Shown piece after piece: positions 2,948-62,963 of a stretch of DNA of 64,000 nucleotides. Origin of the DNA: Novosphingobium piscinae (GTDB lineage Bacteria > Pseudomonadota > Alphaproteobacteria > Sphingomonadales > Sphingomonadaceae). The translations under genes were made by a program, and so were the position numbers. The notes below the pieces were generated by a model. It saw only the letters and a program-made list of their open reading frames with translations. It was not told where the DNA came from and ran no database searches. The number at the start of each line of letters is the position of its first letter. Position 1 is the stretch's first letter. The stretch lies in assembly GCF_014230355.1 (NCBI RefSeq), contig NZ_JACLAX010000015.1, forward strand, positions 1-64,000. The letters run 5' to 3'.

Positions 2948-4964
<2,017 letters not shown>

Positions 4965-46881: not shown

Positions 46882-47105
46882 ATACGTGCAGGTGCCAAGA
46901 AACCGCGGTTCAGGCAAGCGCGACGGCCGGTCCGCCCCCACCCCGCCGGTCGGTACATTGCCAATCCGTAATGGTCTCCCCACGGTCCGGTCGTCCTGGC
47001 AGGCCCATAGACCGGGGCGACGGCACGGCGTCTTCCTCGCACCAGCCCCGGCGCGGCAAGGCCCGGCCGTCACCCCCGCCCCGGCCCAGCAGCAGGATCT
47101 CCGCC

Positions 47106-50100
47106 TTGATCCGACCGGTGTTCTTCGATCCGTCCGGCCGGCGCCGGGTGCGGGCACGCCGGATCCTGCTGGCGCTGCTGGCCCTGTTGAGCGTGGCCTG
47201 CGCGGTCTTCGCCACCACCGTGCTCGACGTGCCCACCCAGGCCCCGCTGCCGATCGGCTACGAACGGTTGACGCCCCTACCCCTGCCTGCCCAGCTGAGC
47301 CACCTGCGCCACCGGGTGAGCGCGCTGCTGCCGGCCGGGGTGCGTGCCGCCCCGCCCCACGGCCACCCGCTGACGCTGGGCTTCTACACCCCCGAGGCCG
47401 AGGACGGCGTGCCCTCGCTGCGGCGCCATATCGGCCAGCTCGACTGGATCGCCCCGACCCTGCTCGGCCTGTCCGCTGCGGGACGGCTAGAGGTTCGCGA
47501 CGATCCGGCGCTGCGCCAGGTGATCGGTGGATCGCTGCACCGTCCGCTGGTGATCCCCGTGCTCCAGAACCTGCAGGATGGCGAGTGGAGCGGCGCCACC
47601 GCCGCGCGCATGCTGCATGATGCGGGGCAACGGCGCCGGCTGGAGCTGGACATCGCCGCGCATCTCGCTGCGAGCGGCGATGCGGGGATCCTGTTCGACC
47701 TCGAAAACCTGCCGGATGCCGCGCTGCCCGACCTGGTGCGGCTGGTGGCCGAAACCCGCGCGCGGCTGGCCCCGGCCGGCCGGCTGGTGGCGGTGACCAT
47801 GCCGATCGACGCTCCGGCCTGGCCGGCCCGGGCACTGGCCCGCGCCGCCGACAAGCTGGTGCTGATGGCCTATGACGAGCACTGGGAGGGCGGCACCCCC
47901 GGTCCGATCGCGTCGGAGCCATGGTTCGCCGCCCGGCTGGCCGCGACCGTGGCGGGCCTGCCGGCCGACCGGGTGATCGTCGCCTTGGGCAACTATGCCT
48001 ATGACTGGCACGCCGGCCAGGCCGAGGCCCTGACCGTGGCTGAGGCCTGGCTGACCGCGCGCGACAGCGAGGCCCGGCCCCGCTTCGTTAACGCACTGGG
48101 CAATGCCGCCTTCTCCTATGCCGATGGCGGGGTGCGCCACGACGTGTGGCTGCTCGATGCGGCCGCCAGCTGGAATGAGTTGCACGTGCTGCGCCAGCTC
48201 GGCCTCGCCAATGTCGCGCTGTGGCGGCTGGGTTCGGAGGACCCCGGCTTCTGGTCCGTGCTGGCGCGCTGGCGCAGCGGCGCGGGTCGGCCGACCCTGA
48301 CCACCATCGCCCCGCCGCAGACGGTCGATGTCGCGGGCAGCGGCGAGATCTTGCGGATCGCGGCCACGCCCCAGGCGGGCCGGCGCCAGCTGACCTATGC
48401 ACCCCGCGGTGAGCGCATCGTCGACGAGCGTTTCCTCGCCCTGCCCACGCCTTTCGAGGTGCAGCGCACCGGGAACCGGCCCCGGCTGGTCGCCCTGACC
48501 TTCGATGACGGTCCCGACCCGACCTGGACCCCGCGGATCCTCGACGTCCTTGAGCGGTTCCATGTCCCGGCAACCTTTTTCATCGTGGGCGAGAACGGCG
48601 TGGCCCAGCGCGGACTGCTGCGCCGGATCGCCGAGGACGGAGACGAGATCGGCAACCACAGCTATACCCACCCGAACATGGCCGAGGAGGCGCCGGCCGG
48701 GATCGGGCTCGAGCTCAATGCCACGCAGCGCCTGATCGAAGCCTATACCGGCCGCTCCACCCGGCTGTTCCGCGCGCCCTATTTCGGCGATGCCGAGCCG
48801 ACCACCGCCGACGAGCTGCAACCCGCGCTGGTCGCCCAGCGCCGCGGCTACACCGTGGTCGGCCTGCACGTCGATCCCGGCGACTGGCAGCGCCCGGGCA
48901 CGGCGGCGATCGTCGCCCGGACCATCGCCGGGGTCGAGCATCCCGCGCCGGGCCGTTCGGGTAACGTGGTGCTGCTTCACGACGGCGGGGGCGACCGTGC
49001 CCAGACCCTGGCCGCCCTGCCGCTGATCATCGCCCGGCTGGAACATGATGGCTACCGCCTCGTTCCGGTCTCGACCCTGGCGGGGCTGGGGCATGATCAG
49101 GTCATGCCGCGGGTCGAGGGGATCGATCTCGCCGCGGTGCGCGCGGATGTGTTCCTGTTCGGTGCGATCGGCGCGGGACTGACCGGGCTGAACTGGCTGT
49201 TCTTCTTCGCCATCGCGCTCGGGCTGGGTCGGGCCGTGCTGCTCACCGGGCTTGCGCTCCTGCCAGGGCGGATCCGCCCGCGCGCCTGCGCCGTCCCGTT
49301 CCGGCCGACCGTGACGGTCATCATCCCGGCCTACAACGAGGAGCGGGTGATCGCCGCCGCGGTGCGGCGCGTGCTGGACAGCGACTATCCCGATATCGAG
49401 CTGATCGTCGCCGACGACGGATCACGCGACCGCACCAGCGCAATCGTCGCGGCTACCTTCGGCAGCGAGCCGCGCATGCGGCTGCTCACCCTGGCCAACG
49501 GCGGCAAGGCGGCGGCGCTCAACCGCGCGCTGGCCGAGGCCCACGGCGAGGTAATCGTCGCGCTCGACGCCGATACCCAGTTCGAACCGGCCTGCATCGG
49601 GCGGCTCGTGCGCTGGTTCGCCGATTCGGCGATCGGGGCCGTGGCGGGCCATGCCAAGGTGGGGAACCGGGTCAACCTCGTCACCCGCTGGCAGGCGGTC
49701 GAATATGTCACGGCCCAGACCATCGAGCGGCGCGCGCTGGCCCGGTTCGACGCCATCATGGTGGTGCCCGGTGCGGTCGGGGCCTGGCGGCGCGCGGCGC
49801 TCGATGCGGTGGGCGGCTATCCCGAAGACACCCTCGCCGAGGACCAGGATCTGACCATCGCGGTGCAGCGGGCCGGCTGGACCGTGGTCTATGACGAAGA
49901 GGCCGTGGCCTGGACCGAGGCGCCCGAAAGCTTCGCCGCCCTGTCGCGCCAGCGCTTCCGCTGGTCGTTTGGCACGCTGCAGTGCCTGTGGAAGCATCGC
50001 GCGGTGCTGGCGCGGCGCCAGCCCGGCGGGCTGGCCACGGTCGGCATGCCGCAGGCCTGGCTGTTCCAGATCGCCTTCGCGCTGGTCTCGCCACTGATCG

Positions 50101-50513
50101 ACCTGGCGTTGGCGGTATCGATCGGCGGCACCGCACTGCGGGTGCTGCAGCATGGCTGGGCCCAGACCCAGACCGACGTGCTGCGCATGGGTGCCTATTG
50201 GCTGGCTTTTACCGTGGTGGACCTGCTGTGCGGATTCGTCGCCTTCCGGCTGGACGTGCGCCGGGAACGCTTCCGGCCGCTGCTGCTGCTGGCGCAGCGG
50301 TTCGTCTACCGGCAGCTGATGTATGTCGTGGTGATCCGCGCCGTGGCCGCAGCCTGGGCGGGCCGTGCGATCGGCTGGGGCAAGCTCGAACGATCGGGTC
50401 GGGTCAGCGACCGCGCCGTGGCCGGCCCGCTAGACCAGAGGGAGGCGCAGCCGCGCGACCAGCCCCCCCGCCTGTCCCCCGCCAGCGTCCCCAACCCGCC
50501 CCCCGTCGCCTGA
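47106..50513 (+). CDS. GH18-like / polysaccharide deacetylase / GT2 fusion protein
   Basis: A 1135-residue membrane protein joining three enzymes of polysaccharide metabolism. After a first membrane helix comes a GH18-like domain with FDLEN (Asp198, Glu200). A NodB deacetylase follows with TFDDGPDP (Asp467/468), GNHSYTHPN, RAPYF, DPGDWQRPG and VLLHDGG. Then, after membrane segments, a GT2 domain has VIIPAYNEE (about 736 onward), DDGSRDRT, DADTQ, EDQDLT and QRFRWSFGT, with further helices. All GT2 motifs of processive hexosaminyl synthases are present, so it probably makes and deacetylates an N-acetylhexosamine polymer. Start TTG at 47106 (MIRPVFFDPSGRRR) is preferred over far-upstream ATGs; AGGA precedes it. 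Confidence 0.88.
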   Translation: MIRPVFFDPSGRRRVRARRILLALLALLSVACAVFATTVLDVPTQAPLPIGYERLTPLPLPAQLSHLRHRVSALLPAGVRAAPPHGHPLTLGFYTPEAEDGVPSLRRHIGQLDWIAPTLLGLSAAGRLEVRDDPALRQVIGGSLHRPLVIPVLQNLQDGEWSGATAARMLHDAGQRRRLELDIAAHLAASGDAGILFDLENLPDAALPDLVRLVAETRARLAPAGRLVAVTMPIDAPAWPARALARAADKLVLMAYDEHWEGGTPGPIASEPWFAARLAATVAGLPADRVIVALGNYAYDWHAGQAEALTVAEAWLTARDSEARPRFVNALGNAAFSYADGGVRHDVWLLDAAASWNELHVLRQLGLANVALWRLGSEDPGFWSVLARWRSGAGRPTLTTIAPPQTVDVAGSGEILRIAATPQAGRRQLTYAPRGERIVDERFLALPTPFEVQRTGNRPRLVALTFDDGPDPTWTPRILDVLERFHVPATFFIVGENGVAQRGLLRRIAEDGDEIGNHSYTHPNMAEEAPAGIGLELNATQRLIEAYTGRSTRLFRAPYFGDAEPTTADELQPALVAQRRGYTVVGLHVDPGDWQRPGTAAIVARTIAGVEHPAPGRSGNVVLLHDGGGDRAQTLAALPLIIARLEHDGYRLVPVSTLAGLGHDQVMPRVEGIDLAAVRADVFLFGAIGAGLTGLNWLFFFAIALGLGRAVLLTGLALLPGRIRPRACAVPFRPTVTVIIPAYNEERVIAAAVRRVLDSDYPDIELIVADDGSRDRTSAIVAATFGSEPRMRLLTLANGGKAAALNRALAEAHGEVIVALDADTQFEPACIGRLVRWFADSAIGAVAGHAKVGNRVNLVTRWQAVEYVTAQTIERRALARFDAIMVVPGAVGAWRRAALDAVGGYPEDTLAEDQDLTIAVQRAGWTVVYDEEAVAWTEAPESFAALSRQRFRWSFGTLQCLWKHRAVLARRQPGGLATVGMPQAWLFQIAFALVSPLIDLALAVSIGGTALRVLQHGWAQTQTDVLRMGAYWLAFTVVDLLCGFVAFRLDVRRERFRPLLLLAQRFVYRQLMYVVVIRAVAAAWAGRAIGWGKLERSGRVSDRAVAGPLDQREAQPRDQPPRLSPASVPNPPPVA

Positions 50514-51812
50514 ACCGAGCGAGAAGCTGCCGCCATGCAGGCGCGCGATCGCCGCGACCGTGGCCAGCCCGAGCCCCGCACCGGGCCGTGTCCGGGCGTT
50601 GTCGAGCCGGGTGAAGCGTTCGAGCGCCCGCTCGCGGTCGGCAGCGGGGATGCCGCGGCCGTCGTCCTCGACCTCGATCACCACGGCCTCCTCGGCGGGT
50701 ACTGTCCGCACCATGATCCGGCCGCCGCCGTACTTGAGCGCATTGTCGATGAGGTTGGCGAGCGCACGCGACAGCAGCTCGCGGTCGCCCAGCACGGTGG
50801 CCGGGACCCCGCTTGCGACAAGTTCGACGCCGGTCTGTTCGGCGAGCGGCTCATAGAGCTCGGCCAGGTCGAGCACCAGCGCGCGCACCTCAAGCGGGGC
50901 GCGCCGGTCAGCCATGGCTCCGCTTTCCAGCCGGGCCAGTTCGAGCGCCGCCGCCAGCATCGCCTCGAGCACCTCGGCGTCGGACAGCGCCAGCTGCAAC
51001 GCGTCCTGCGCCGCTCCCTCGGGCACGGCCGCCTGCGCGGTCTCGATCGCCGCGCGCAACCGCGCGACGGGCGAGCGCAGATCGTGCGCCAGCCCGCCGG
51101 CAACCGACTGCAACTCGCTCACCAGCCCGTCGATCCGCTCGGCCATCAGGTTGATCTGGCGACCGAGGTGGTCGAACCCGTCGCCGAACCCGCTGCTCTC
51201 CACCCGCGCCGCAAAGTTGCCCGCGGCCAGCGCCTCGGCCGTCTCGGCAATGGCATGGGCGCGGCGGCTGACGACCAGGCCGGTCAGCATCGCCCCGCCC
51301 AGCGCCAACCCGGCCGTGAGCACGATCACCAGCGCGAGCGCCTCGACGAAGGCAAGATCGAAGTGCCGATCGGGCGTGGTCAGGATCCCGACAACGAGAT
51401 GGGTGCCATCGGCCAGGTCCGCCGCCAAGGCGAGCGCCTCCGCCGGAGGGCCACCGCTGGCATGGTAGGCCCGGATGCGCACGGGACGATCGCCCGCCGC
51501 CACCTGCGGCACCGCGGCGAGGTGACTGAGCACCGGCTTGCCGTGGCCCGAAACCGCTACGAACAGCAACGGATCGCTGACGCTGCCGCGCCGCTCGGCA
51601 ACGGCGCTGGCCAGTTCGCGGTAACCGCCCGCATAGAAGGCGCCGAGCAGCTCGTTGCGCAGATCAACAATCTGCCGCGTGCGGTCGAGATCGATGACCT
51701 GCAGCATCTTGGCGCGCAGCAGCCCGATCGCCGCGCCGCCGGAAATCACCTGCAGCACGAAGATCGCCGCGATCAGCCGCGCGACGGTGGACGAGGCAAG
51801 GCGCCGCAGCAT
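50430..51812 (-). CDS. Sensor histidine kinase of the ABC-HlyD-TolC operon
   Basis: A 460-residue kinase with two membrane helices (about 10-30 and 160-182) around a periplasmic domain, HAMP (about 180-235), His243 in GGLAHDLRSPVARL, N-box ALANLIDNALKYG and G-box GAGLGLATV. It follows its regulator by 13 bases and ends the secretion-like operon. Its last 84 bases overlap the 3' end of the convergent GH18-NodB-GT2 gene. Confidence 0.93.
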   Translation of the reverse strand: MLRRLASSTVARLIAAIFVLQVISGGAAIGLLRAKMLQVIDLDRTRQIVDLRNELLGAFYAGGYRELASAVAERRGSVSDPLLFVAVSGHGKPVLSHLAAVPQVAAGDRPVRIRAYHASGGPPAEALALAADLADGTHLVVGILTTPDRHFDLAFVEALALVIVLTAGLALGGAMLTGLVVSRRAHAIAETAEALAAGNFAARVESSGFGDGFDHLGRQINLMAERIDGLVSELQSVAGGLAHDLRSPVARLRAAIETAQAAVPEGAAQDALQLALSDAEVLEAMLAAALELARLESGAMADRRAPLEVRALVLDLAELYEPLAEQTGVELVASGVPATVLGDRELLSRALANLIDNALKYGGGRIMVRTVPAEEAVVIEVEDDGRGIPAADRERALERFTRLDNARTRPGAGLGLATVAAIARLHGGSFSLGSGDGGRVGDAGGGQAGGLVARLRLPLV

Positions 51813-51825
51813 GGCGGGCCGAACG

Positions 51826-52515
51826 CTACCCGGCCGCGATCATGTAGCCGGCGCCGCGCACCGTGCGCAGCAGCGCCTCGGGCTCGCCATCGTCGATCTT
51901 GCGGCGCAGACGGCTGATGTGGACGTCGATGACATTGGTGCCGGGATCGAAGTGATAGTCCCACACCGCCTCGAGCAGCATGGTGCGGGTCACCACCTGG
52001 CCGGCATGGAGCAGCAGGTACTCGAGCAGGCGAAACTCGCGCGGTTGCATCGGGATCTTGCGGCTGCCGCGCCGCACCTGCCGGGTCAGCCGGTCCAGCT
52101 CGAGCTCGCCGCAGCGCAGCACGGCGGCTTCGGCCTGGGCCGGTCCGCCCTTGTCGCGGCGCAGCAGGGCCTGGACCCGCGCCAGCAGCTCGGCAAAGGA
52201 GAACGGCTTGCCGAGATAGTCGTCGGCGCCGGCGGTCAGGCCCTCGATCCGGTCGTTGGTATCGGCCAGGGCCGACAGGATGATCACCGGCGTGCGCACT
52301 CCGGCGGCGCGCATCGCCTTCAGCACGGCCATGCCATCCATTCCCGGCAGCATCCGGTCGAGGATCACCACGTCATGCTGCGCGTCCGTGGCGAGGAACA
52401 GCCCGTCGCGCCCGGTGGCGGCGCGGTCGACGGTGAAGTTCTGCTCGAGCAGCCCGCGCGAGATGTACTCGGCGAGCCGATCGTCGTCCTCCACCACCAG
52501 CACCCGTCCAGCCAT
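51826..52515 (-). CDS. OmpR-type response regulator of the ABC-HlyD-TolC operon
   Basis: A 229-residue regulator with receiver acidic residues (VVEDDDRLAEY), phospho-acceptor Asp53 (VVILDRMLPGMDG), conserved lysine in LGKPFSFAELL and a winged-helix domain (MQPREFRLLEYLLLHAGQVVTR, NVIDVHISRLRRKID, VRGAGYMI). It belongs to the CusR/QseB-like branch. It lies 62 bases after the TolC gene and before its kinase. Confidence 0.93.
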   Translation of the reverse strand: MAGRVLVVEDDDRLAEYISRGLLEQNFTVDRAATGRDGLFLATDAQHDVVILDRMLPGMDGMAVLKAMRAAGVRTPVIILSALADTNDRIEGLTAGADDYLGKPFSFAELLARVQALLRRDKGGPAQAEAAVLRCGELELDRLTRQVRRGSRKIPMQPREFRLLEYLLLHAGQVVTRTMLLEAVWDYHFDPGTNVIDVHISRLRRKIDDGEPEALLRTVRGAGYMIAAG

Positions 52516-52577
52516 CCGGTCCTCCTGATCAGCGGCACGAGCCTAGGCAAATCCGCGGTGGAGAGAAAGGGGCGCGG

Positions 52578-53975
52578 TCAGAGTCCGAGCTGGCGCACGT
52601 CGATGGTGGCGGCGATCAATTCGGCATTGGCGGTGGATTCGCGCAGCTGGGCATCGACCAGCCGCAGCCGGGCATCGGCCGCGGCCTCTTCGCGCAGGTT
52701 GACCAGGATGAAGTCGCTGGCGCCGAGGGTGAAGCGGCGGCGTTCCGCATCGGCCATGTTGGCCGAGAGGCGGGTCTCGTCCTCGGCCAGGGTGACCAGC
52801 TTGGCCGCCGCGTCGACCTGCACGGTCAGCCCGCGCACCTCGACCTGGATCTGGTCCTCGAGCAGCCGCCGCCGCGCCTGCAGCGCCTCCTGCTCGGCCT
52901 GGACCTCGGCCACGCGGCCCTTGGCCTGGCGGCGCTGCAGCGGGACCGAGAAGCGCAGACCGACGAAGCCCTCGGCCGGGGTCCGGGTCGGCCCGCCCAG
53001 CCCGACCGCCCCGATGTCCTTCGAAGCTTCGACCCGCAGGTCAAGCCGCGGATCAAGCTGGTTCTCGGCCAGCCGCCGGCGGGCTTCGAGCTGGTCGAGC
53101 CGGGTGATCAGGGCTGAAAGGTCGGGACGGTCGGGGCGGATCAGCGAGGCCGGATCGAGCGACACCGGCTCGAGCCGCGGCAGCTCGTTCGGCAAGCGCT
53201 CGGGCCCGGGGACCTGTGGTTCGCCCAGCTCGTTGCGCCAGAAGAATGACAGCGCGTTCGCGGCCACCGCCAGCTCCTGCTCCGACCGGACCAGCAGCGA
53301 ATTGCGGCGCACGATGTTCTGGCGGTTCTCGACGCCAAGGATCGCCGGCCGCGCACCCAGCGCGATCAGGCGATCGATCGAGGTCTGGCGCTCGGTCGCC
53401 AGAGCCAGCAGCTCGCGATAGATCGCCACGCGGTTGCCCGCCGCGACCCACTGCTGATAGGCTGCCATGGCCCGGCGCTGGACGCCCACCGCCACCAGTT
53501 CGCGATCGAGCCGCGCCAGTTCGACGTCGGCCGCGGCCAGACCCAGCGTGGTCCGCCGTTCGTCGATCACCCGGTCGCGCAGCAGTGCGAACAGCGCCCC
53601 GACCTTCACCTCGCCGAGCTGGTTGGTGTAGCCCTTGGCCTCATAGCCGGGAAAGTTCCCGCGCGAGACCCGGTAGCTGCCATAGAGGTTGCCGCCGTTG
53701 TCGCGCAGCGGGCTGGTCACCTTGGTCTCGAAGGTCGAGCCGTCATAATAGCCGAACGGCTGGACCTGCGCCTCGGCATCGAACACCAGGTCGAAGGCGC
53801 CGTTGGCCGACAGCTCGCGGCCGGACGCCGCGCGCTCGCGCGCCATGGCCTCGACGATCGCCGGCGAATGCTGCGCCGAGGCACGCAGCACCTCCGCGAG
53901 GGTGAGCGGGGTCGCGGCCCGGGCCACCCCGGCAAGGGTCAGCAGGATCAGGCAGGCCAGCAGCCGTCGGATCAC
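52578..53975 (-). CDS. TolC-family outer-membrane channel protein
   Basis: A 465-residue outer-membrane efflux protein. The start is a GTG overlapping the HlyD stop (GTGA), followed by a signal peptide (RRLLACLILLTLAGVARA-AT). The two long helical repeats of the family are visible: LTLAEVLRASAQHSPAI in the first and PDLSALITRLDQLEARRRLAENQLDPRLDLRVEASKD in the second, followed by FVGLRFSVPLQRR. It would form the outer-membrane exit of the transport system encoded upstream. Confidence 0.9.
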   Translation of the reverse strand: MIRRLLACLILLTLAGVARAATPLTLAEVLRASAQHSPAIVEAMARERAASGRELSANGAFDLVFDAEAQVQPFGYYDGSTFETKVTSPLRDNGGNLYGSYRVSRGNFPGYEAKGYTNQLGEVKVGALFALLRDRVIDERRTTLGLAAADVELARLDRELVAVGVQRRAMAAYQQWVAAGNRVAIYRELLALATERQTSIDRLIALGARPAILGVENRQNIVRRNSLLVRSEQELAVAANALSFFWRNELGEPQVPGPERLPNELPRLEPVSLDPASLIRPDRPDLSALITRLDQLEARRRLAENQLDPRLDLRVEASKDIGAVGLGGPTRTPAEGFVGLRFSVPLQRRQAKGRVAEVQAEQEALQARRRLLEDQIQVEVRGLTVQVDAAAKLVTLAEDETRLSANMADAERRRFTLGASDFILVNLREEAAADARLRLVDAQLRESTANAELIAATIDVRQLGL

Positions 53976-55072
53976 TTGCCACCGTCCTTGCCGCTGTCGC
54001 CCTCGGCCGGCTTGGCCTTGGCCTTGGCGCCGTTGCCCTTGCTGTCGGCAGCCTCGGCGGCCTGCCGGATCGAGCCGAACTCGGGCGGGAAGTTGTTGAG
54101 CTGCCGCCACAGTTCGTAGCCCACCGTAACCGTGTCGAGCCGGACCCAGCCGCGCACCTTGGCGCCCAGGCGGATCTGCTCGGCCGCCGGCCAGGGACGT
54201 GCGCCCGGGGCAGGCTCAACCAGCACGCGGAACAGGCCGTCGGTGCGCGCCGAGGGATCGACCGAGCGGACCCGGGCATCGAACATGCCATAGGCGACCG
54301 ACGGCCAGCCACTGAACTGGATCGCCGGCCAGCCCTCGAACTCGATCCGGACCGAGCGACCGGAGTGCACCAGCGCGATGTCGCGCCCGTCGATCAGCAG
54401 TTCGATCACCCGCACCGGCTCGCTGGGGGCCAGCGTGGCGAGCACATCGCCCGCGCTGACCAGCGTGGCCCCGGCGGCGGCGTTGATCGACTGGATACGG
54501 CCATCGCGCGGCGCCCGCACGATCTGCGCTGACTGGCGGGTCAACGCCACGTCGACGCGGTTGAGCTTGGCCCGCGATTCCGCCAGCTTGGCCCGGTGGT
54601 CCGCCACCTTGATCATGCTCGCCTCGTATTCGCGCCGCGCGACGAGGCCCTCGGAGAGCAGCTGGCGTGACCGGCCGACATCGATCTGGGCTACGGCCAT
54701 GGCCTGCTGGGCCGCTTCGATCTCGGCCTCGACCTGGGCCCGCTCGGCGGCGAGCCGGGCGAGCAGGCCGGGATCGTTGTCGACCACCTGGGCGATCGGA
54801 TCGCCCTTGCGGACCGTTTCGCCGTCGCGCACGAACCAGCGCTCGACCCGGCCGGGCACCAGCGCGGTGACCGACTGGACCCGGTCCTCGGGGTGGAGCG
54901 CCACCACCGTGCCGTAACCCGAGGTGGTCTGGACCCAGGGTACGGCGAAAAGGATCACCACCACCACCGCGGCGCCGAACAGGATCATCGTCGACAGGAC
55001 CCGAGCCAGCCGCGGCGGCTCCAGCGCGGCCAGCGTCGCGAAGCGACGCATGTGATCAGGCCGTGCGGACAT
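53972..55072 (-). CDS. HlyD-family periplasmic adaptor
   Basis: A 366-residue membrane-fusion protein. One inner-membrane helix (about 28-48) is followed by a lipoyl/barrel-sandwich fold (VQSVTALVPGRVERWFVRDGETVRKGDPIAQV), a coiled-coil of about 90 residues (ERAQVEAEIEAAQQAM through RQSAQ), the returning lipoyl half (VRAPRDGRIQSINAAAGATLV), and a beta-barrel domain. The C-terminus has an extra Lys/Ala/Gly-rich tail. It overlaps the end of the ABC gene by 17 bases. Confidence 0.92.
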   Translation of the reverse strand: MSARPDHMRRFATLAALEPPRLARVLSTMILFGAAVVVVILFAVPWVQTTSGYGTVVALHPEDRVQSVTALVPGRVERWFVRDGETVRKGDPIAQVVDNDPGLLARLAAERAQVEAEIEAAQQAMAVAQIDVGRSRQLLSEGLVARREYEASMIKVADHRAKLAESRAKLNRVDVALTRQSAQIVRAPRDGRIQSINAAAGATLVSAGDVLATLAPSEPVRVIELLIDGRDIALVHSGRSVRIEFEGWPAIQFSGWPSVAYGMFDARVRSVDPSARTDGLFRVLVEPAPGARPWPAAEQIRLGAKVRGWVRLDTVTVGYELWRQLNNFPPEFGSIRQAAEAADSKGNGAKAKAKPAEGDSGKDGGK

Positions 55073-56744
55073 CGTTGCTCTCCTCCTGCGCGGCCACCGC
55101 GCTCAATTCCTCGACGCTCGCACAGAAGTGCTGCTCGCTGCGACCGAACCACATGTAGCGGTCTCGCTGCACGCCTTCGGGCCGGCGGGTGAACTGCAGC
55201 ACCGTCGTGCCCAGCTGCCGGAACCGCGCGAGGGCGCCGTCGAGGCAGTCGGGCGGCAGCAGATCGTACAGCGGCGAAAGCACCAGCACCTTGGGCTGCG
55301 CCAGCAGCGCCGCGGCCAGCTTCAGGGCCATCAGATCGCCCACCGACAGGGGCCAGCCCGAGGTCGAGATGATCGCGTCGAGACCACCGGGCAGGTGGAT
55401 CAGGCGGCTGGTCAACCCGACCGCCTCGAGCGCACCCATGATGTCGGCCTCGCGCTCGCCCGCTGCAAGCTGGAGATAGTCGCGGATCGACATTTCGACG
55501 AAGGTCGGACGGTCGAGCACGCGGATATCGCCGCGCAGGCGGTACATGTCGAAGGCCGAGATGTCCTGGCCGCCGATCACCACCAGCCCCTGCGCCGCGG
55601 TTTCGTGCCGCTTGAGCAGCAGGATGAAGGCCTGCTGGACCTCGGGTGGGCCGACCACCGCCACTTGCTCGCCGCTGTCGAGCGCGAAATCGAACCGGAA
55701 ACGACCGGTGCGCACCGTGTTCATGCGCAGCGTCCCGTCGGCCGGGCCATTGCCGTCGCCCTTCGGCGTCTGCTGCGGAATATCCCAGAACAGCGACAGC
55801 TCCTCGAGCCCGGCGACCAGGTCGTAGAACGATTCCAGATAGCTGCCGAGCTGCGCGACGCCGTAGAACACGCCCGACAGGATCAGCTCGGCGGCGACCA
55901 GCTGGCCGATCGACAGCTGGCCCTGGATGATCAGCCAGCCGCCCAGCGCCAGTAGGCTGGCGCTGGCGAGCGCGTAGGTGAAGAGCAGGCAGACGGTCTG
56001 CGCGAAAGTCGTGCGGAAGTGGCGCTCATGAGCCTGCACGTAGGTCTTGGTGACCTGCTCCGAGCGGTCGATCGCATAGTCGAGATGGCGGATCGACTGG
56101 TAGAAGCCGTTCGAACCACCGACGCTTTCGAGCCAGTAGGCCGTGGCGTGCTTGGCATGGCTCTTGGTGATCGCCGTGGTGATGCCGCTGCGGGTCCAGA
56201 CCCGCCAGATCACGATCAGCACGATCACCAGCACCAGGTTGAACGCCAGAAAGAACGGATGGTAGAAACTGGTCACGATCAGCCCGACCGCGCTCTGCAG
56301 CAGGATCGTGAAACCGCCCACCAGCAGGCTGGGCAGCGCCTTCTGGACCGTCATCAGATCGAAGAAGCGGTTGAACAGGTGACCGTTGCCGGCGTCGGCG
56401 AAGAACGGGTTCTTGGCGTGGACCGCACGCAGGGTGATTTCCGCGACCATCCGGGCGAACAGGCGCCGCTCGAACAGCGACATCAGGCGGACCCGCAGGG
56501 CGCTGAGCAGCCCGACCATCAGCAGCAGGCCGAACAGGATGCCGGCCAGGGTGAACAACGGCGCGCTCAGCGCCACGTTGGCAACCGAGTTGATCAGCAG
56601 CTGGACCGAGATCGGGGTGGCCAACGACAGCAGCGAGATCGCGCCGCCATAGACGAGGGCGAATTTGACGAACACGGCATCGGGGCCGAGGATCAATCGG
56701 ATCCACCCCGCCACTTCGCGCAGCCCTGCGCTGTGCTGTGCCAT
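55056..56744 (-). CDS. Type I secretion-like ABC protein with a degenerate nucleotide-binding domain
   Basis: A 562-residue protein with the exporter arrangement: a membrane domain (about residues 15-300, five to six helices, with AKNPFFADAGNGHLFNRFFD typical of type I exporters) and a C-terminal domain aligned with an ABC ATPase. The ATPase motifs are lost. The P-loop site reads GPPEVQQA (365-372) instead of GxxGxGKS; the signature is LSVGD (466-470); Walker B reads KVLVLSPLY (485-493) with no Asp/Glu pair; the Q-loop and H-loop residues are also replaced. It lacks a peptidase domain. HlyD and TolC follow directly. It may be a non-hydrolysing scaffold or need another ATPase. Confidence 0.88.
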   Translation of the reverse strand: MAQHSAGLREVAGWIRLILGPDAVFVKFALVYGGAISLLSLATPISVQLLINSVANVALSAPLFTLAGILFGLLLMVGLLSALRVRLMSLFERRLFARMVAEITLRAVHAKNPFFADAGNGHLFNRFFDLMTVQKALPSLLVGGFTILLQSAVGLIVTSFYHPFFLAFNLVLVIVLIVIWRVWTRSGITTAITKSHAKHATAYWLESVGGSNGFYQSIRHLDYAIDRSEQVTKTYVQAHERHFRTTFAQTVCLLFTYALASASLLALGGWLIIQGQLSIGQLVAAELILSGVFYGVAQLGSYLESFYDLVAGLEELSLFWDIPQQTPKGDGNGPADGTLRMNTVRTGRFRFDFALDSGEQVAVVGPPEVQQAFILLLKRHETAAQGLVVIGGQDISAFDMYRLRGDIRVLDRPTFVEMSIRDYLQLAAGEREADIMGALEAVGLTSRLIHLPGGLDAIISTSGWPLSVGDLMALKLAAALLAQPKVLVLSPLYDLLPPDCLDGALARFRQLGTTVLQFTRRPEGVQRDRYMWFGRSEQHFCASVEELSAVAAQEESNDVRTA

Positions 56745-57034
56745 GATCTGCGGCTCTCCTGCTCAATCGTTCAAAGACGCCTGTCGGCGACGGGGGGTGA
56801 TCGCGGCTCGATCCGGTCCGGCGGACCTTTGCGAAGCGGCCGGCTCAGGCTCCTATAGCAAAGGTTTGTGACGCGCGCGCGCTGCTTCGACCGTGGCCGG
56901 CAACGGTGGCGCATCCACCGGTCAATGCCAGGTCTGAGATCATCGGGCGAGCTTACCTCCACAGGGCCATGACACGCAGCACCCTTGCTGCATCGCACCA
57001 AAGTACGAACGCCGTCATTTCCCGACACCCATCT

Positions 57035-57046
57035 AATTGTTACAAA
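57035..57046 (+). promoter_or_regulatory. AATTGTTACAAA element, copy 1
   Basis: The 12-base sequence occurs here on the plus strand and again, reversed, upstream of the TorF-like gene. It is embedded in one of the few AT-rich patches of the region, about 290 bases before the ABC ATG. GTTAC/GTAAC half-sites resemble targets of some OmpR-type regulators, three of which are encoded in this window. The link is speculative. Confidence 0.35.
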
Positions 57047-57442
57047 TCATTGCGAAAAGGCGATTTGTCGGGTGGATGGCACGGCGCACCGCGCGGAGCA
57101 CGATTTTCGCCCGGTGGCGTGCCCCAACCGGCAGCTCGAGCCCAGACATACAACGTTACGAAGCTGAGCGGATCACGCACACGCCCGCTGGTAGATCCCG
57201 TGCACCGCAGTTTTCGGAGTCCGAAATGCCCACTGCAGTGCGCTGTACACCCCGTTTCCGTCCCCGGGGTGGAGCGAGCGACCTGGCGAAGGTTGCTCAT
57301 GGCAGCTGCGGCATCTGGTGACGATGGCCAGACCGGCCCCGTTCCCCGAGGTCCGAACCCGGTCCTTGCCGGGTGGACAGGCACGCAAGCATGCGGCTTT
57401 GGCTGACGCCCTCTGACTGCCCAGACGCAAGGGCTCAGCCCC

Positions 57443-57509
57443 TGACTGAACGTCCCACCCACGTTTCAGTCGCAAACTGGGGAGCCGCCGCGCGGCTCCC
57501 CATCTTTGT
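57443..57509 (+). ncRNA. Candidate small RNA 3' end or bidirectional terminator
   Basis: Two adjacent stem-loops. The first pairs GACTGAAC..(57443) with GTTTCAGTC (to 57470) around a loop containing CCCACCC. The second pairs GGGGAGCCGC (57478-57487) perfectly with GCGGCTCCCC (57491-57500) and is followed on the plus strand by ATCTTTGTT. This is the layout of a small-RNA tail with an intrinsic terminator. The second hairpin could instead end the minus-strand TorF transcript, whose stop is about 90 bases away, but the T-tract there is poorer. The 5' end cannot be placed. Confidence 0.4.
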
Positions 57510-57590
57510 TGGCCCTGGCCCGCAATGGGGCGAGGCCGAGCCGGCCGGCGCCGTGGCGGCGCCAGCCGGGGTGGTGTGCTCAGGCCCGGC

Positions 57591-58409
57591 TCAGAACGCC
57601 GCGGTGAGCGAGACGACCACGGTGCTGCCCGCGATCGACTTGCCGTCCTTGGTCGACGAGAAGTTGGGCTGCAGGTAGGCGGCCTCGCGGTCGGTGATGT
57701 CGGTGTCGATGTACGACACGTTGACGGTCAGGCCGGCCACGGCGATGTCCGCGCCCAGCGCCCAGTCCCAGTACTTGCCGGTCGGCGCGACGCTGGTGCC
57801 GTTCGGGCCGAGGCCGGGGTTGCCCTTCGACCAGCCGGCGTGGGCCTTCAGCGTGACCGGGGTACCCGGCACGGCAGCGCTGGTGTCACCCCAGAGATAG
57901 AGGTTGTCCTGCTTCTGGCCGCGGCTGATCGTGGTGTTCGAGAAGTTGCCAAGCGCGATCTGCTTGGGCGCATAGGCCACACCGGCGAGCACGTTGAGCG
58001 GACCGGCCGCGCCGCTGACCTTCACGTAGGGCTCGACGAAAGACGTGCGATCGGCGCCGCCCGGATAGTTGTACCAGGTCGCACCGGCATCGACGGTCAG
58101 CGCACCGGCCGGAATGGCCACACCGGCGATCAGGTCAAGCTCGAGGTTCGGGCCGCCGAAAGTGCCCCAGCCCGACAGGTTCGACGCCCAGAAGCCGGCA
58201 TAGACGCCGCTCTTGTGCTTGGCGGTCACACCGCCCTGGATCGCCATGCCGCCGTTCGACTGCGAAACGCCGCGGAAACGGTAGTCGCTGGCCAGGGTGG
58301 CCGAACCGGAAATCGTGATATCCTTGGGGGCATCGGCCTCTTGGGCCAAGGCAGGAGCAGCACTGCACAGCGCACAAGCGGCGGCGGCAACAGCAAAGAT
58401 AGTCTTCAT
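57591..58409 (-). CDS. TorF-family putative porin
   Basis: A 272-residue outer-membrane protein. A signal peptide (MKTIFAVAAAACALCSAAPALA-Q) is followed by a barrel-type sequence: ITISGSATLASDYRFRGVSQSNGGMAIQGG is the family start, with SGVYAGFWASNLSGWG and repeated beta-strands, ending VVVSLTAAF with a terminal Phe. Start at 58409 chosen for the signal peptide; the frame upstream is leader sequence. It follows the kinase gene by about 190 bases and probably has its own promoter near 58560. Substrate unknown. Confidence 0.88.
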   Translation of the reverse strand: MKTIFAVAAAACALCSAAPALAQEADAPKDITISGSATLASDYRFRGVSQSNGGMAIQGGVTAKHKSGVYAGFWASNLSGWGTFGGPNLELDLIAGVAIPAGALTVDAGATWYNYPGGADRTSFVEPYVKVSGAAGPLNVLAGVAYAPKQIALGNFSNTTISRGQKQDNLYLWGDTSAAVPGTPVTLKAHAGWSKGNPGLGPNGTSVAPTGKYWDWALGADIAVAGLTVNVSYIDTDITDREAAYLQPNFSSTKDGKSIAGSTVVVSLTAAF

Positions 58410-58473
58410 GGAACAATCCCTCATGTTTTTGGGTTGTTCCTCCTGCGCCCCGAGACCGACGCCGTTTTCTCCT

Positions 58474-58497
58474 CCAAGCCTGCCGGGACAGGCTTGG
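58474..58497 (-). promoter_or_regulatory. Stem-loop in the leader of the TorF-like gene
   Basis: CCAAGCCTG and CAGGCTTGG form a perfect nine-base stem with a six-base loop, 65 bases upstream of the ATG. It is inside the likely 5' leader and could affect translation or stability. No T-tract follows on the transcribed strand. Confidence 0.4.
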
Positions 58498-58561
58498 CGG
58501 GTACACCGTACCTCGGGACCTTTTCCGTTTATCGGCTGAAAACCGGCTCGTCGATTGCAGT

Positions 58562-58573
58562 TTTGTAACAATT
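58562..58573 (-). promoter_or_regulatory. AATTGTTACAAA element, copy 2
   Basis: On the minus strand the sequence reads AATTGTTACAAA, identical to the plus-strand site at 57035-57046. It lies about 150 bases before the TorF-like ATG in an AT-rich patch, directly upstream of where that gene's promoter would be. Confidence 0.35.
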
Positions 58574-58596
58574 TGTTGCTGAACGAGCTGTCAGGG

Positions 58597-59940
58597 TCAT
58601 GCCTCTGTGGTTGTGCGGGGCAGCAGAAGCGTCGCCACCAACCCGCCTCCGGGACGGTTGGCCAGGTCCAGCCGCCCTCCTTCGGCCTGAATCACGCGGT
58701 CGACGATGGCCAGTCCCAGCCCCATGCCGCGGGTGTTGCGCGCCCGTGCATCGTCCAGCCGGGTGAACGGCTGGCGCACATCGTCGAGCCGTTCCTCGGG
58801 GATGCCTGGCCCGCGGTCGGCCACGGCCAGCTCGACCCACTCATCGCCGGGACGCAGGCTCACCTCGGCGGTGCCGGCATAGCGGTGGGCGTTCTGCAGC
58901 AGGTTGGCGATGGCCCGGCGCAGCCCGGCCGGATGGGCCCGGATCTCGAGCGAATCCGGACCTTCGTAGGTCACCTCGAGCCCGGCATCGGCGGCCCCGT
59001 CGATCTGCGAGCGGACCATCGCGGCCAGATCGATGGCCCGCGCCGGCCCGCTGTCCTGACCGGACTCGACGAAGGCCTGCAACGAGGCGAGCAGTTCGGA
59101 CATCTCCGAGATGTCCTCGTCCATCTCCCCGCGGGTCGCCTCGTCGATCGGGGCGCCATCAACCCGCAGCTGCAGCCGCGCGAGCGGTGTGCGCAGGTCA
59201 TGGCCCACCGCCAGCAGGGTCTGGGTGCGGCTGGTCAGCAGCTGGTGGATCCGCTCGTTCATGCGATTGAACGCCCGGATCAGCTGGCGCACCTCGCTCT
59301 GGCCGGCCTCGGGCAGCAGTTCCATGTCATCGGTGCCGACCTGGCGCATCGCCGTGACCAGCCGCTGGAGCGGGGCCACGCTGGTGCGCACCAGCCACCA
59401 GGCGACCAGGAAGAACAGCAGCGAGGGCAGCGAGAAGCGCAGCAGCAGATCCCAGTTGAGCGACCACGACACCAGCCGCTTGGACCGGAACACCAGCTCG
59501 GACCCGTCGGGGAGCAGCGCCGATCCGGCCATCCCACCCCCGCGCGACAGCGGCACCAGCACCAGTTGCAGATCGGCGCTGGCCAGTTCGCGCTGGGCCT
59601 GGACGATCTCGTCCTTGAGCGAGGGCAGCGCGGCAAAATCGTTCTCGGCCGGCCGGCGGGCGCGCCAGTCGATGTGGAAGCGGCTGGTCGAGAGCTGGTG
59701 CGCCACCAGCGGGCGCGAGTGGCGCGGTGCATCGGCCAGCACCCGACGGGCCACGACGAGGTGTTCGGCGGCGCGGGCCACCTCCTCCGAATTGACCACG
59801 AAGGTCCGCGCCCGCTCGAACATCAGCGAGTTGGCGACGAAGTCGGCGACCAGGATCACCAGCATGATCGCCAGCAGCCGCGCTGCCAGGCTCAGGCTGA
59901 TCCGTTCATACCAGCGCCGCAGCGTGGCCGAGACGCTCAT
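58597..59940 (-). CDS. Sensor histidine kinase
   Basis: A 447-residue kinase with membrane helices at about 17-37 and 165-187, a periplasmic domain between, HAMP, His247 (LAVGHDLRTPLARL), N-box IANLLQNAHRYAG and G-box GMGLGLAIVD. Arrangement resembles EnvZ/RstB-type sensors. It overlaps its regulator by four bases. Confidence 0.93.
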   Translation of the reverse strand: MSVSATLRRWYERISLSLAARLLAIMLVILVADFVANSLMFERARTFVVNSEEVARAAEHLVVARRVLADAPRHSRPLVAHQLSTSRFHIDWRARRPAENDFAALPSLKDEIVQAQRELASADLQLVLVPLSRGGGMAGSALLPDGSELVFRSKRLVSWSLNWDLLLRFSLPSLLFFLVAWWLVRTSVAPLQRLVTAMRQVGTDDMELLPEAGQSEVRQLIRAFNRMNERIHQLLTSRTQTLLAVGHDLRTPLARLQLRVDGAPIDEATRGEMDEDISEMSELLASLQAFVESGQDSGPARAIDLAAMVRSQIDGAADAGLEVTYEGPDSLEIRAHPAGLRRAIANLLQNAHRYAGTAEVSLRPGDEWVELAVADRGPGIPEERLDDVRQPFTRLDDARARNTRGMGLGLAIVDRVIQAEGGRLDLANRPGGGLVATLLLPRTTTEA

Positions 59941-60677
59941 TGCCGCGTGACGGGGACGGTGAACATGTAGCCGACACCGCGCACCGTCTTGATCGGCGCG
60001 CTGCCATCAGGCCCCGCCAGCTTGCGCCGCAGCCGGCTGACCAGCACGTCGACGCTGCGGTCGGAGGAATCGCCCAGGCGGGTGCGCGACAGCTCGATCA
60101 GCTTCTCGCGCCCGATCGCCCGCTGCGGATAGCTGACAAAGGCGTTGAGCAGGTCGAACTCGGCGGTGGTCAGATCGACCAGCATCCCGCTCGGCGAACG
60201 CAGCTCGCGGCTTGCCCGGGCCAGGGTCCAGCCGCTGAAGACGATGTCGCCGGCAGCCGCGCGCGGCTCGGACAGGACCTCGCCCGACCGCCGCCGCAGC
60301 ACCGCACCGATCCGGGCGACCAGCTCGCGGGTGTTGAACGGCTTGGGCAGGAAATCGTCGGCACCCAGCTCCAGTCCGACGATCCGGTCCTCCTCGCTGC
60401 CGCGCGCGCTGAGGAAGATCACCGGGGTGTCGAGGGTGCGGCGCAGGCGCCGCAGCACGTCGAGCCCGTTCATCCCCGGCAGCATGATATCGAGGATGAT
60501 GAGGTCGAAGCTCTCCTTCTCCAGCACCAGCCACAGCTCGGCGGCGGTCGCCACAGCGGCGATCTCGAAACCGTGCTCGCGCAGATTGCGCGTGATCAGC
60601 GTCCGCAGCGGACCATCGTCCTCGACCAGCATGAGGCGGGTTACGGCAAACTGTTGTTCGTACACGGGAGCGTCCAT
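59937..60677 (-). CDS. OmpR-type response regulator
   Basis: A 246-residue regulator with Asp63 as phospho-acceptor (LIILDIMLPGMNG), the lysine of FLPKPFNTRELV and a winged-helix domain (VDLTTAEFDLLNAFVSYPQRAIGR, RSVDVLVSRLRRKL, VRGVGYMFTVPV). The ATG at 60677 is preferred; the upstream frame lacks family features. It is cotranscribed with the kinase, and the TorF-like gene downstream is a plausible target. Confidence 0.92.
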   Translation of the reverse strand: MDAPVYEQQFAVTRLMLVEDDGPLRTLITRNLREHGFEIAAVATAAELWLVLEKESFDLIILDIMLPGMNGLDVLRRLRRTLDTPVIFLSARGSEEDRIVGLELGADDFLPKPFNTRELVARIGAVLRRRSGEVLSEPRAAAGDIVFSGWTLARASRELRSPSGMLVDLTTAEFDLLNAFVSYPQRAIGREKLIELSRTRLGDSSDRSVDVLVSRLRRKLAGPDGSAPIKTVRGVGYMFTVPVTRQ

Positions 60678-60848
60678 CTGGCTGATATGGGTGTGCAGCG
60701 CAGGGCTGACCACCCCCGCTTCGTCGCCTCGCTTATCGCCTCCAACCGCGTCTGCTGCCAAGTAACTTTGCATTGCCGGAATCGCGCTGCAGCGTAACGC
60801 TGCACGTGCGGTCCGCGGCATCCTGCGATCGCGGCCTGCGCCGCGCGC

Positions 60849-61310
60849 CTAACGGCTGAGCGCGCGGCGCAGGCCGAGCGGCGTCACGATCAGCGCGAGC
60901 AGCGCTCCATAGACCATCTTCAGCGCCAGGGCAGCGCTCGGGGACAGGGCGGAGAGCCCGGCCAGCCCCGCCAGCCCCGCCACCGCAGCCGTGCCCAGGA
61001 CCACGCCCAGCACCGCCATCAGCAGCGCCCGCACGACCAGATTGCCCGGCAGCCGCCCCGGCGCACCCGCGGGCCGGATCCGCCCCGCCCGCACCGCGCG
61101 CCCCGCGATGGCGCCAGGCACCAGGGTGCTCATCAACGCGATCATGAAGCTTTGCGGGATGAAATCGAACACCCAGTAGCCCAGCCCCCAGACCTGCACC
61201 GGGTCCTGCCCGCGAAACACCAGCCAGAAGGCCGCGGCCGACAGCACGGTGTTGATCACCACCGAGACGAGCGTCTCGCGGCGGATATAGGTCACATGGT
61301 CCTGCGTCAT
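60849..61310 (-). CDS. Four-helix membrane protein, unknown function
   Basis: A 153-residue protein with four hydrophobic segments at about 14-34, 45-70, 92-117 and 122-147 and a basic loop (RAVRAGRIRPAGAPGR) between the second and third. The start MTQDHVTYIRRETLVSVVIN is preferred over an ATG seven codons upstream. No family was recognised. Confidence 0.7.
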   Translation of the reverse strand: MTQDHVTYIRRETLVSVVINTVLSAAAFWLVFRGQDPVQVWGLGYWVFDFIPQSFMIALMSTLVPGAIAGRAVRAGRIRPAGAPGRLPGNLVVRALLMAVLGVVLGTAAVAGLAGLAGLSALSPSAALALKMVYGALLALIVTPLGLRRALSR

Positions 61311-61444
61311 GCCCTCACCTGTCACGTCCACCGGCGCCCGGCGCGCCTCCTCGCGCGCCGCCCGGCCGTCCCGCTGTTGTCAGGACACAGACCCGGCGAC
61401 AAGCCCGTTTGGTGGATAGGCATCGTCCCCCCGGATCGACCGGC

Positions 61445-62785
61445 TCAGCCAATGGCCAGTTCGCCGGTCGCGTCCGCGTCATAGGCGGCGCGGTCGAGCA
61501 AGCCTTCGCGGCGCGCCACGATCACCGGGATCAGGATCTGCCCGGCTACGTTCACCGCGGTGCGGCCCATGTCGAGGATCGGGTCGATCGCCAGCAGCAG
61601 GCCGGCGCCCTCGAGCGGCAGGCCCAGCGTGGTGAGCGTCAGCGTGAGCATCACCAGCGCCCCGGTCACCCCCGCGGTCGCCGCAGAGCCGAGCACCGAG
61701 ACCAGCACGATCAGCAGGTACTGCGCCGGGTCCAGCGTCAGGCCATAGAACTGCGCAATGAAGATCGCCGCGACGGCCGGATAGATCGCGGCGCATCCGT
61801 CCATCTTGGTGGTCGCCCCGACCGGCACGGCAAAGGCGGCATAGGCCTCGGGCACGCCGAGGCGCTGGGTGGTGATGGCCTCGGCGACCGGCAGCGCCGC
61901 CACCGACGAGCGCGTCACGAAGGCCAGCTCGATCGCCGGCCACGCCTTGGCAAAGAAGCGCAGCGGGCTGAGGCCATGCGCCTTGAGCAGCAGCGGGTAG
62001 ATCACGAACAGCACGATCCCGAGGCCGAGGTAGACCGCCAGCGCGAACTGGGCGATCGAGCCCAGCGTGTCCCAGCCATACTTGACCACGGCATTGCCGA
62101 TCAGCCCGGCCGAACCGTAAGGCGCCAGCTGGACCAGCCAGCCGAGGAGGCGGCGCAGCACCACCAGGACCTGGCCGACCCCGTCGAGCAGCCGCTCGCC
62201 CGCCTCGCCGGAGCGCAGCGCGGCGAAACCGAGGGCGATCGCCATGACCACGATCTGCAGCACATTGAATTCAAGCCCGGTCGATACGGCGCCCTCGGTC
62301 AGCTTGCTGCTCGCACTGAGGCCAAGGAAGTTGGCCGGAACCAGGCTGCGGGTAAAGTCGAGCCAGGTGCCGACGCTCTTGGGCGCCGTGGCGCTCGCCG
62401 CCGAGACGCCGGCGTGAACCCCGGGCTCGAGTGCGAGGCCCAGCGCGATCCCCGTGAGCACCGCCAGCAGCGCGGTCAGCGCGAACCACAGCAGGGTCTG
62501 CCCGGCCAGCCGCGCCGCGTTGTTCAAGGTCCGGAGCCGGGCGATGCTGGCGACGATCGCCGCGAAGATCAGCGGCGGCACCAGCACCTTGAGCAGTTGC
62601 ACGAAACTGCTGCCGACCAGCGCGAGCAGCTGCGCGATGGCGTTGGGGCTGCCGTCGGCAGCCGGGCCGATCGCCCCGGCCGTCAGCCCCAGCACCAGCC
62701 CGGCGCCGATGCCGATCAGCACCCTGAGCCCGAAACTGGCGCGCCGCGGCGGGGCCGGCGTCGCGGGATTGGCGGTTGCAGACAT
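61445..62785 (-). CDS. Dicarboxylate/amino-acid:cation symporter (DAACS family)
   Basis: A 446-residue secondary transporter of the GltP/DctA family. It has SSFVQLLKVLVPPLIFAAIVASI, LVPANFLGLS, the serine-rich re-entrant loop FVTRSSVAALPVAEAI, the cation/substrate motif FAVPVGATTKMDGCAAIYPA, and DMGRTAVNVAGQI. The ATG at 62785 follows a GGAAGGAG ribosome site; the upstream frame is rejected. A run of nine C lies about 26 bases before the start. Likely substrate glutamate, aspartate or C4-dicarboxylates. Confidence 0.93.
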   Translation of the reverse strand: MSATANPATPAPPRRASFGLRVLIGIGAGLVLGLTAGAIGPAADGSPNAIAQLLALVGSSFVQLLKVLVPPLIFAAIVASIARLRTLNNAARLAGQTLLWFALTALLAVLTGIALGLALEPGVHAGVSAASATAPKSVGTWLDFTRSLVPANFLGLSASSKLTEGAVSTGLEFNVLQIVVMAIALGFAALRSGEAGERLLDGVGQVLVVLRRLLGWLVQLAPYGSAGLIGNAVVKYGWDTLGSIAQFALAVYLGLGIVLFVIYPLLLKAHGLSPLRFFAKAWPAIELAFVTRSSVAALPVAEAITTQRLGVPEAYAAFAVPVGATTKMDGCAAIYPAVAAIFIAQFYGLTLDPAQYLLIVLVSVLGSAATAGVTGALVMLTLTLTTLGLPLEGAGLLLAIDPILDMGRTAVNVAGQILIPVIVARREGLLDRAAYDADATGELAIG

Positions 62786-62963
62786 GACGGGCTCCTTCCG
62801 GCAGGCTGAGCGGGGGGGGGCTACCGGGCACACCCCTGCCCGGCCGGTCAGGAAAGGTGCCACGCCGCGCGCCGCATGCAAGATGCCTTGTCTGCGGGGG
62901 ATAGTAGGAAAACTGGCAGCCGGACGGGCGGTCGCGCCCGCCGCGGCACGCCGTGCCGGCGGG

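Follow-up and report, generated by a model that had tools for sequence, protein, structure and literature searches.

ATP-binding cassette (ABC) exporters are taught as machines requiring at least one working ATP site, and heterodimeric exporters such as TM287/288, TAP and TmrAB keep one consensus composite site. Work on a further exporter, LmrA, has been debated. When devoid of its nucleotide-binding domain (NBD) LmrA was described to perform proton–ethidium symport, with glutamate E314 of transmembrane helix 6 (TM6) required for the pH dependence (PMC2704374, PMC6155054), and MsbA lacking the same domain uses a pH gradient to transport ethidium (PMC4979069). In SbmA, whose ABC-fold dimer has no NBD, protons drive transport via a ladder of glutamates, and descent of SbmA/BacA from full ABC transporters through NBD loss has been proposed (PMC13316013). 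For tripartite systems, the available part of a review places degenerate ATP sites in the context of heterodimers such as TmrAB (PMC8277102). Herein we analyse a 64,000-nucleotide stretch of Novosphingobium piscinae DNA (the window), the minus strand of which encodes an ABC-exporter-like protein of 562 residues with an apparently dead NBD, followed by genes for a HlyD-type adaptor and a TolC-family channel.

Motif loss in the protein and its family

Direct reading of the protein confirmed the degenerate motifs reported in the first-pass annotation of this DNA, i.e. GPPEVQQA at the P-loop, VLVLSPLY at Walker B, LSVGD as signature, and replacement of the Q-loop and switch His residues. Not one of the six canonical ATPase features (Walker A Lys, Walker B Asp and Glu, Q-loop Gln, switch His and LSGG) is present. 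The accompanying statement that all motifs are lost holds for the ATPase motif set but goes too far for the signature, which retains the Ser and the second Gly (LSxG) and is the least degenerate of the motifs. The position had been given correctly, with the 562-residue open reading frame (ORF) running from 56744 to 55056 on the minus strand; as the frame is intact, no frameshift-corrected reading restores the motifs, and the plus-strand reading contains a stop. The gene and its parts are as follows:

55056..56744, minus strand: ABC-exporter-like protein with a putatively dead NBD, 562 residues (ORF, Pfam, NCBIfam, family comparison)
55770..56687, minus strand: membrane domain, approximately residues 20-325 (Pfam ABC_membrane over 38-290; six long helices in a low-confidence AlphaFold2 model)
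55887..55889, minus strand: Glu286 (E286) in TM6, family-invariant
55113..55745, minus strand: degenerate NBD, approximately residues 334-544 (fold kept in the AlphaFold2 model)
55629..55652, minus strand: apparently dead Walker A GPPEVQQA, residues 365-372 (sequence and family alignment)
55503..55520, minus strand: family motif VLDRPT at the Q-loop site, residues 409-414 (R412 invariant in the family alignment A1)
55335..55349, minus strand: degenerate signature LSVGD, residues 466-470 (sequence and family alignment)
55263..55289, minus strand: apparently dead Walker B VLVLSPLYD, residues 486-494 (sequence and family alignment)
55176..55208, minus strand: switch region without His, TTVLQFTRRPE, residues 513-523 (sequence and family alignment)

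The Pfam model ABC_membrane was matched at 41.5 bits (cut-off 28). The profile search of the C-terminal domain that had been suggested gave ABC_tran only below its threshold (19.2 vs 25 bits). The nearest NCBIfam model was the HlyB type TIGR01846, at 73.6 bits and hence below its cut-off of 725.55, and a match of 113.1 bits was obtained to a phage-borne ABC transporter family in PHROGs.

The first-pass annotation had described the degeneration for this gene alone. It is common to a family found in at least two phyla, some members of which keep a P-loop. An orthologue was present in 56 of 296 sampled genomes of the order (E ≤ 1e-40), and further relatives were found in Novosphingobium, Sphingomonas and Methylobacterium genomes, on plasmids, in genomes labelled by kinship as other classes of the phylum and in Bacteroidota. 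Motifs were compared in 71 distinct family proteins. For these, 48 of the 56 order genomes were read (leaving out G194, G284, G258, G277, G143, G246, G280 and G093, the last of which matches residues 8-330 only), together with six of 18 plasmid records (H1, H4, H13, H16, H18, and H17 fetched as H21) and one of four Riemerella records (H22). Records H3, H5, H7, H8 and H11 were used for annotation only, and the fragment L011, from a 3.9-kb contig, and the canonical exporter L013 were excluded from the family.

None of the six features was found in 58 of the 71 proteins. The Walker A column holds Lys in nine (62 being without it), the Walker B columns Asp in three and Glu in five, and the switch position His in one, while the combination of Lys, Asp and Glu, the Q-loop Gln and LSGG were each found in 0/71. 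LSxG is kept in 17, the window protein included, and Ser or the second Gly of the signature is gone in the other 54. The family has motifs of its own at the Q-loop (hLDRPT-VE-TIR-YL), at and after the signature (PLS--E---LKLA-ALL--P) and at the switch (TTV--FT-RP), and ABC_membrane was recognised in all 45 rows of A1 (Pfam, E ≤ 0.01). Alignment of orthologues, proposed earlier as a check, thus reveals a conserved loss, a normal Walker A plus B occurring in 0/71. The motif loss is old and shared, in whole or in large part, across the family; it is not the decay of one copy.

Partial loss is seen in a minority of relatives. A Gly-Lys P-loop is found in five of the nine Lys-bearing proteins (L085, L103, L117, L118, L119). 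L103 (G637) and L117 (G773) keep the P-loop and the Walker B Asp, with Glu, the full signature and His gone; the Riemerella (L118) and Persicobacter (L085, L119) proteins keep the P-loop Gly-Lys, and in Aureibacter (L087) the Gly is not kept. ABC_tran was scanned in A1 and five further proteins, and the four P-loop keepers covered all exceeded its cut-off (L103 and L117 as L123 and L125). In a membrane-domain tree built from 32 family rows of the 71, all 32 were split from seven exporters of the type I secretion system (T1SS) type by a branch at 100/100. The five P-loop rows sit in one seven-row clade (98/98) together with two rows lacking the P-loop, and the starred branches of the tree force at least three changes in the P-loop label. 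Consequently, the P-loop was lost more than once, or regained, of which repeated loss would be the simpler. With five additional canonical rows on long branches included, the root was disturbed (86/97) and a canonical row was misplaced onto the family side. As a separate observation, His162 in the TM3-TM4 region is kept in 69 of 71 proteins, the exceptions being L103 and L117, the two with both P-loop and Walker B Asp; this His may be connected with the loss of ATPase function, or the pattern may merely reflect shared descent.

Both domains are under purifying selection, so that the loss of selection named in the first-pass annotation as a possible refutation is not seen. Across 15 hand-picked pairs, the ratio of non-synonymous to synonymous substitution rates (dN/dS) was ≤ 0.363 for the NBD in the 12 unsaturated pairs (one with a dS of 3.04) and ≤ 0.21 for the membrane domain in the 11 unsaturated pairs. 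Between the window and Novosphingobium aerophilum (L006, 81% identical) the values were 0.303 and 0.152, respectively. Identity to the window protein was lower in the NBD than in the membrane domain in 44 of 44 A1 relatives (mean 0.445 vs 0.625), and conservation within the family was 0.55 for the NBD against 0.70 for the membrane domain. Conversely, a canonical exporter of the same bacterial family showed the reverse in 24 of 24 orthologues (0.806 for the NBD, 0.626 for the membrane domain; 25 loci fetched of 56 matches). In combination, these comparisons point to an NBD freed from the ATPase constraint, yet not free to decay.

The NBD fold is predicted to be retained. An AlphaFold2 model from seven sequences had a mean predicted local distance difference test score (pLDDT) of 63.2 and a predicted TM-score of 0.43, with much of the membrane domain low and residues 341-520 at pLDDT 60-90, mostly > 70; the model is too weak for reading membrane-domain geometry or the facing of E286. 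The best Protein Data Bank (PDB) matches of the model were ABC exporters, with TM-scores of approximately 0.30-0.36 over the whole chain (Foldseek). Superposition of the model NBD on that of ComA (3vx4_A) gave a Z of 19.9 and a root-mean-square deviation (rmsd) of 3.5 over 212 residues; from the VIA-align output only NBD rows were used, the whole-chain rows having an rmsd of ~14.5-18. Among the best 60 of 263 matches, the A1 profile found the solved exporters P-glycoprotein, HlyB and ComA, and no family member was recognised. Segments at the coupling-helix sites, which we take to lie as in ABC exporters generally, are conserved in the family.

The tripartite operon and the search for a partner

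As first annotated, the ABC-like gene heads an operon with HlyD and TolC genes, an assignment supported by Pfam and by the overlapping genes. The order on the minus strand is ABC-like gene, HlyD, OEP/TolC, response regulator and histidine kinase; the ABC-like gene overlaps HlyD by 17 bp, and TolC, with an inferred start at 53975, shares 4 bp with the HlyD stop. The ATG of the ABC-like gene is preceded by a GGAG at a distance of 11 bases, and a promoter scan gave no match above chance. The remaining genes are:

53972..55072, minus strand: HlyD-type periplasmic adaptor, 366 residues (Pfam HlyD_3, HlyD_D23)
52578..53975, minus strand: TolC-family outer membrane factor (Pfam OEP; start inferred within ORF 54110..52578)
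51826..52515, minus strand: OmpR-type response regulator, adjoining the operon (ORF, Pfam, NCBIfam)
50430..51812, minus strand: sensor histidine kinase, adjoining the operon (ORF, Pfam, NCBIfam)

Flanking sequence was available for 64 loci, of which the canonical L013 was set aside. In all 63 others a HlyD adaptor gene adjoins the ABC-like gene on the same strand. A TolC gene lies downstream in 56 according to blastp with the window TolC (57 by clustering), and Pfam OEP is found immediately downstream in three of the other seven loci, giving TolC in at least 59 of 63. Four Methylobacterium loci (L008, L009, L010, L012) carry the ABC-like gene and the adaptor, and no TolC was detected by blastp in the fetched stretch; their sole same-strand ORF of ≥ 300 residues within 2.5 kb is one of 339 residues, in L012. 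Judging from the motifs (Lys, Asp and Glu together in 0/71) and from the adaptor (63/63), the protein is predicted to be an ABC subunit, fully dead, in a tripartite exporter, a combination of which the first-pass annotation knew no described case.

The three-gene cassette occurs in varied gene settings (ten annotated records). SARO_RS19820, on plasmid pNL2 of Novosphingobium aromaticivorans DSM 12444, belongs to the family. The two-component pair that had been counted with the operon is indeed present downstream in the window, but it is a local feature, and part of the relatives carry an upstream LysR gene instead. A LysR-like gene is located ~400 bp or less upstream in 15 loci (L007, L044-L047, L049, L051, L061, L063, L066, L069, L072, L075, L081, L086) and within 1 kb upstream in L008-L010 and L012; in either orientation, one is found in the fetched stretch of 23 of the 64 loci (clustering; two Pfam-confirmed). 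Beyond ABC, HlyD, TolC and, partly, LysR, no further conserved gene hinting at a substrate emerged from the loci examined by clustering. On the Sphingobium plasmid pHAL16 (L084), a DUF2309 gene immediately precedes the operon and a gene for carbonic anhydrase is located at a greater distance (1362-3914 and 12286-13032, respectively).

The absence of a second ATPase gene nearby, noted from the beginning, held up for exporter-type genes. The window (contig C6) has no second ABC_membrane match, lone ATPase genes being checked by eye only, among the ORFs of 48000-64000. Likewise, blastp with two canonical exporters as queries found no exporter-type ABC gene near the 63 loci, a search that distant lone ATPases could escape. 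Four other ABC-like matches were rejected as linked partner ATPases, three being UvrA (NCBIfam, above cut-off) and one a lone ATPase subunit of 310 residues, on the opposite strand ~4.9 kb beyond TolC. The host genome contains six PF00664 matches including this gene, of which one scores under the cut-off, and contig C1 encodes an additional ABC protein. Distribution was examined for two candidates, P0002 and the exporter on C7. The C7 exporter occurs in 56 of 59 genomes of the bacterial family, and a gene that widespread gives no tie to the operon. P0002, a facultative half-transporter of T1SS-like appearance by eye, was found in only four of 296 genomes (taken as the same sample as in the orthologue count), three of which (G000, G209, G002) belong to the 56 that hold the dead gene; it does not co-occur with the operon and was discarded as partner.

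Further genes in the vicinity were identified by eye. Upstream of the operon, on the minus strand, there is another pair of response regulator and histidine kinase genes (60821-58597), an outer membrane protein-like gene (58571-57591, minus strand) is situated between this pair and the operon, and a plus-strand ORF of 1218 residues (46857-50513) appears to fuse a chitinase-like and polysaccharide deacetylase part to a glycosyltransferase.

Possible energy coupling and rival explanations

We give an even chance to the reading that this is a tripartite ABC-fold exporter working without ATP hydrolysis, probably driven by ions, in which the dead NBD has a structural or gating function. The protein would be the inner-membrane subunit, with a type IV ABC exporter fold and its own HlyD adaptor and TolC channel. 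We infer a homodimer operating in the direction of export: the membrane domains of two copies would probably build the translocation path, and alternating access would be powered by an ion gradient, most likely of protons. As coupling site, the strongest candidate is the invariant carboxylate E286 in TM6, and the NBD may have been kept as a structural domain, either holding the dimer together or gating via its conserved coupling-helix contacts. By analogy, the LmrA, MsbA and SbmA precedents lend plausibility to an exporter driven by ions. All 71 family proteins have Glu at position 286, early in TM6, and none of 13 canonical exporters does; the column is N, V, M, Q or gapped in 12 of these and V in the 13th. 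Equating it with LmrA E314 was rejected by residue count. D308, at the E314 position by the same count, was also dropped as a family-specific acid; an acid (D or E) stands there in 64 of 71 proteins, yet one of three canonical controls has D as well.

Several observations weigh against this reading. Removal of the Walker A Lys strongly inhibits LmrA and MsbA in their full-length form (PMC2704374, PMC6155054, PMC4979069), so that ATPase loss alone does not make an ion-driven pump. E286 is the only strongly conserved acidic residue seen inside a predicted membrane helix, as opposed to a ladder in SbmA, and by count it is displaced from E314 by ~20 residues towards the periplasmic end of TM6 (93-99 residues ahead of the Walker A Lys vs 74; a badly aligned row at 75 was left out). 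It could alternatively be an adaptor contact, and, because the members that keep a P-loop have it as well, it need not have arisen with the ATPase loss. ABC_tran is still weakly recognised (E ≤ 0.01) in 21 of the 45 A1 members, the window protein among them, and purifying selection is silent on what the NBD does.

Energy might instead come from a canonical ABC half-transporter encoded elsewhere, which would supply the ATPase in a heterodimer. Heterodimeric exporters with one degenerate site are common (PMC7756269), the host genome offers, besides the protein on C1, five PF00664 matches apart from this gene, with one scoring under the cut-off, and the Ser and Gly of LSVGD, as in 17 of the 71 proteins, could complement the Walker site of a partner. 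However, because 54 of 71 signatures have lost Ser or the second Gly, neither composite site would be consensus in most of the family, and both would be impaired with any partner. The lack of a linked exporter-type gene by blastp in 63 loci and the distributions of P0002 (in four of 296 genomes, three of them with the dead gene) and of the C7 exporter, not tied to the operon, also speak against a heterodimer, which we judge to be unlikely, although a housekeeping half-transporter may yet serve as partner. A slightly smaller share of probability falls to a scaffold, sensor or gated passive channel that places HlyD and TolC without energised transport. Such a role would suit the missing ATPase motifs, the selection retained on both domains and the conserved Q-loop and coupling-region residues, but the membrane domain is better conserved than the NBD, as expected for a working translocation path, and the varied settings of the cassette suit an independent pump. 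Among the three options put forward in the first-pass annotation (a scaffold, a partner ATPase encoded elsewhere, or another way of driving transport), the partner ATPase is thus disfavoured and another driving force favoured, on indirect evidence.

A remodelled site that binds ATP or another nucleotide without hydrolysing it, and thereby regulates the transporter, appears improbable. The five relatives with Gly-Lys but without the full catalytic pair (L103, L117, L118, L085, L119), four of which were scanned and exceed the ABC_tran cut-off, would fit this explanation; the P-loop Lys is, however, missing in the window protein and in 62 of 71, and the site varies in sequence. Pseudogene decay or a sequencing artefact is barely credible and already contradicted. 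Nothing in this gene speaks for it, the single fragmentary relative being L011, and pseudogene decay and a frameshift are ruled out by the intact frame, the loss shared by 71 proteins and the purifying selection (low dN/dS) in a conserved operon.

Relation to known systems

No description of the motif loss in this family was found in the literature searched, which excluded most subscription journals and all bioRxiv preprints, nor did we come across measurements of transport, ATPase activity or proton coupling for its members. A probable family member has been reported from Blastomonas fulva T2, where hlyB (1659 nt), hlyD2 and omp2 are related to Novosphingobium aromaticivorans genes; on the strength of annotation the system, HlyBD2-OMP2, is presented there as a regular ABC efflux pump, the available part of the paper leaving motif loss unmentioned and containing 'Walker' once, as the name of an author (PMC9505733). 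A broader proposal, advanced tentatively and with somewhat less than even confidence, is that of a widespread class of ABC exporters turned ion-driven pumps, in which the NBD, dead but retained in full, serves for gating. They would be intermediates toward SbmA-like transporters, with the P-loop relatives lacking the catalytic pair recording the steps. A conserved family with both sites apparently dead, whose adaptor and channel co-travel across phyla, makes an ABC-exporter fold running on an ion gradient testable in nature, and the graded relatives (P-loop kept, partly lost or fully lost) could be used to trace how an ATPase domain becomes something else. It is also a warning that genes annotated as 'ABC transporter ATP-binding protein' may encode proteins that do not bind ATP.

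Compared with the described systems, the family combines the type IV ABC exporter fold and tripartite linkage with the absence of the motif set of ATP-driven exporters. With HlyB/LssB-type T1SS permease-ATPases it shares the order of membrane domain and NBD, the adaptor and TolC partners and the best NCBIfam models, but it differs in its missing ATPase motifs, its length (562 residues vs models of 694-696) and its separation in the tree at 100/100. Catalytic residues are lost in TM287/288, TAP and TmrAB as well, though partially and within heterodimers; no member of the present family has a full motif set, nor was a linked partner found by blastp. NBD-less LmrA and MsbA likewise unite an ABC-exporter membrane domain with an ion gradient (proposed here for the family), and LmrA has a TM6 glutamate. 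They are, however, engineered truncations of working transporters, and the position of E314 differs from that of E286. SbmA/BacA (SLiPT) resembles the family in its type IV ABC-exporter-like membrane dimer and in ATP independence, the latter again proposed here. While these transporters are defined by having no NBD and no coupling helices, import peptides and use a multi-residue glutamate ladder (PMC13316013), the family protein falls outside that definition, retaining NBD and coupling regions and being encoded together with an adaptor and an outer membrane channel.

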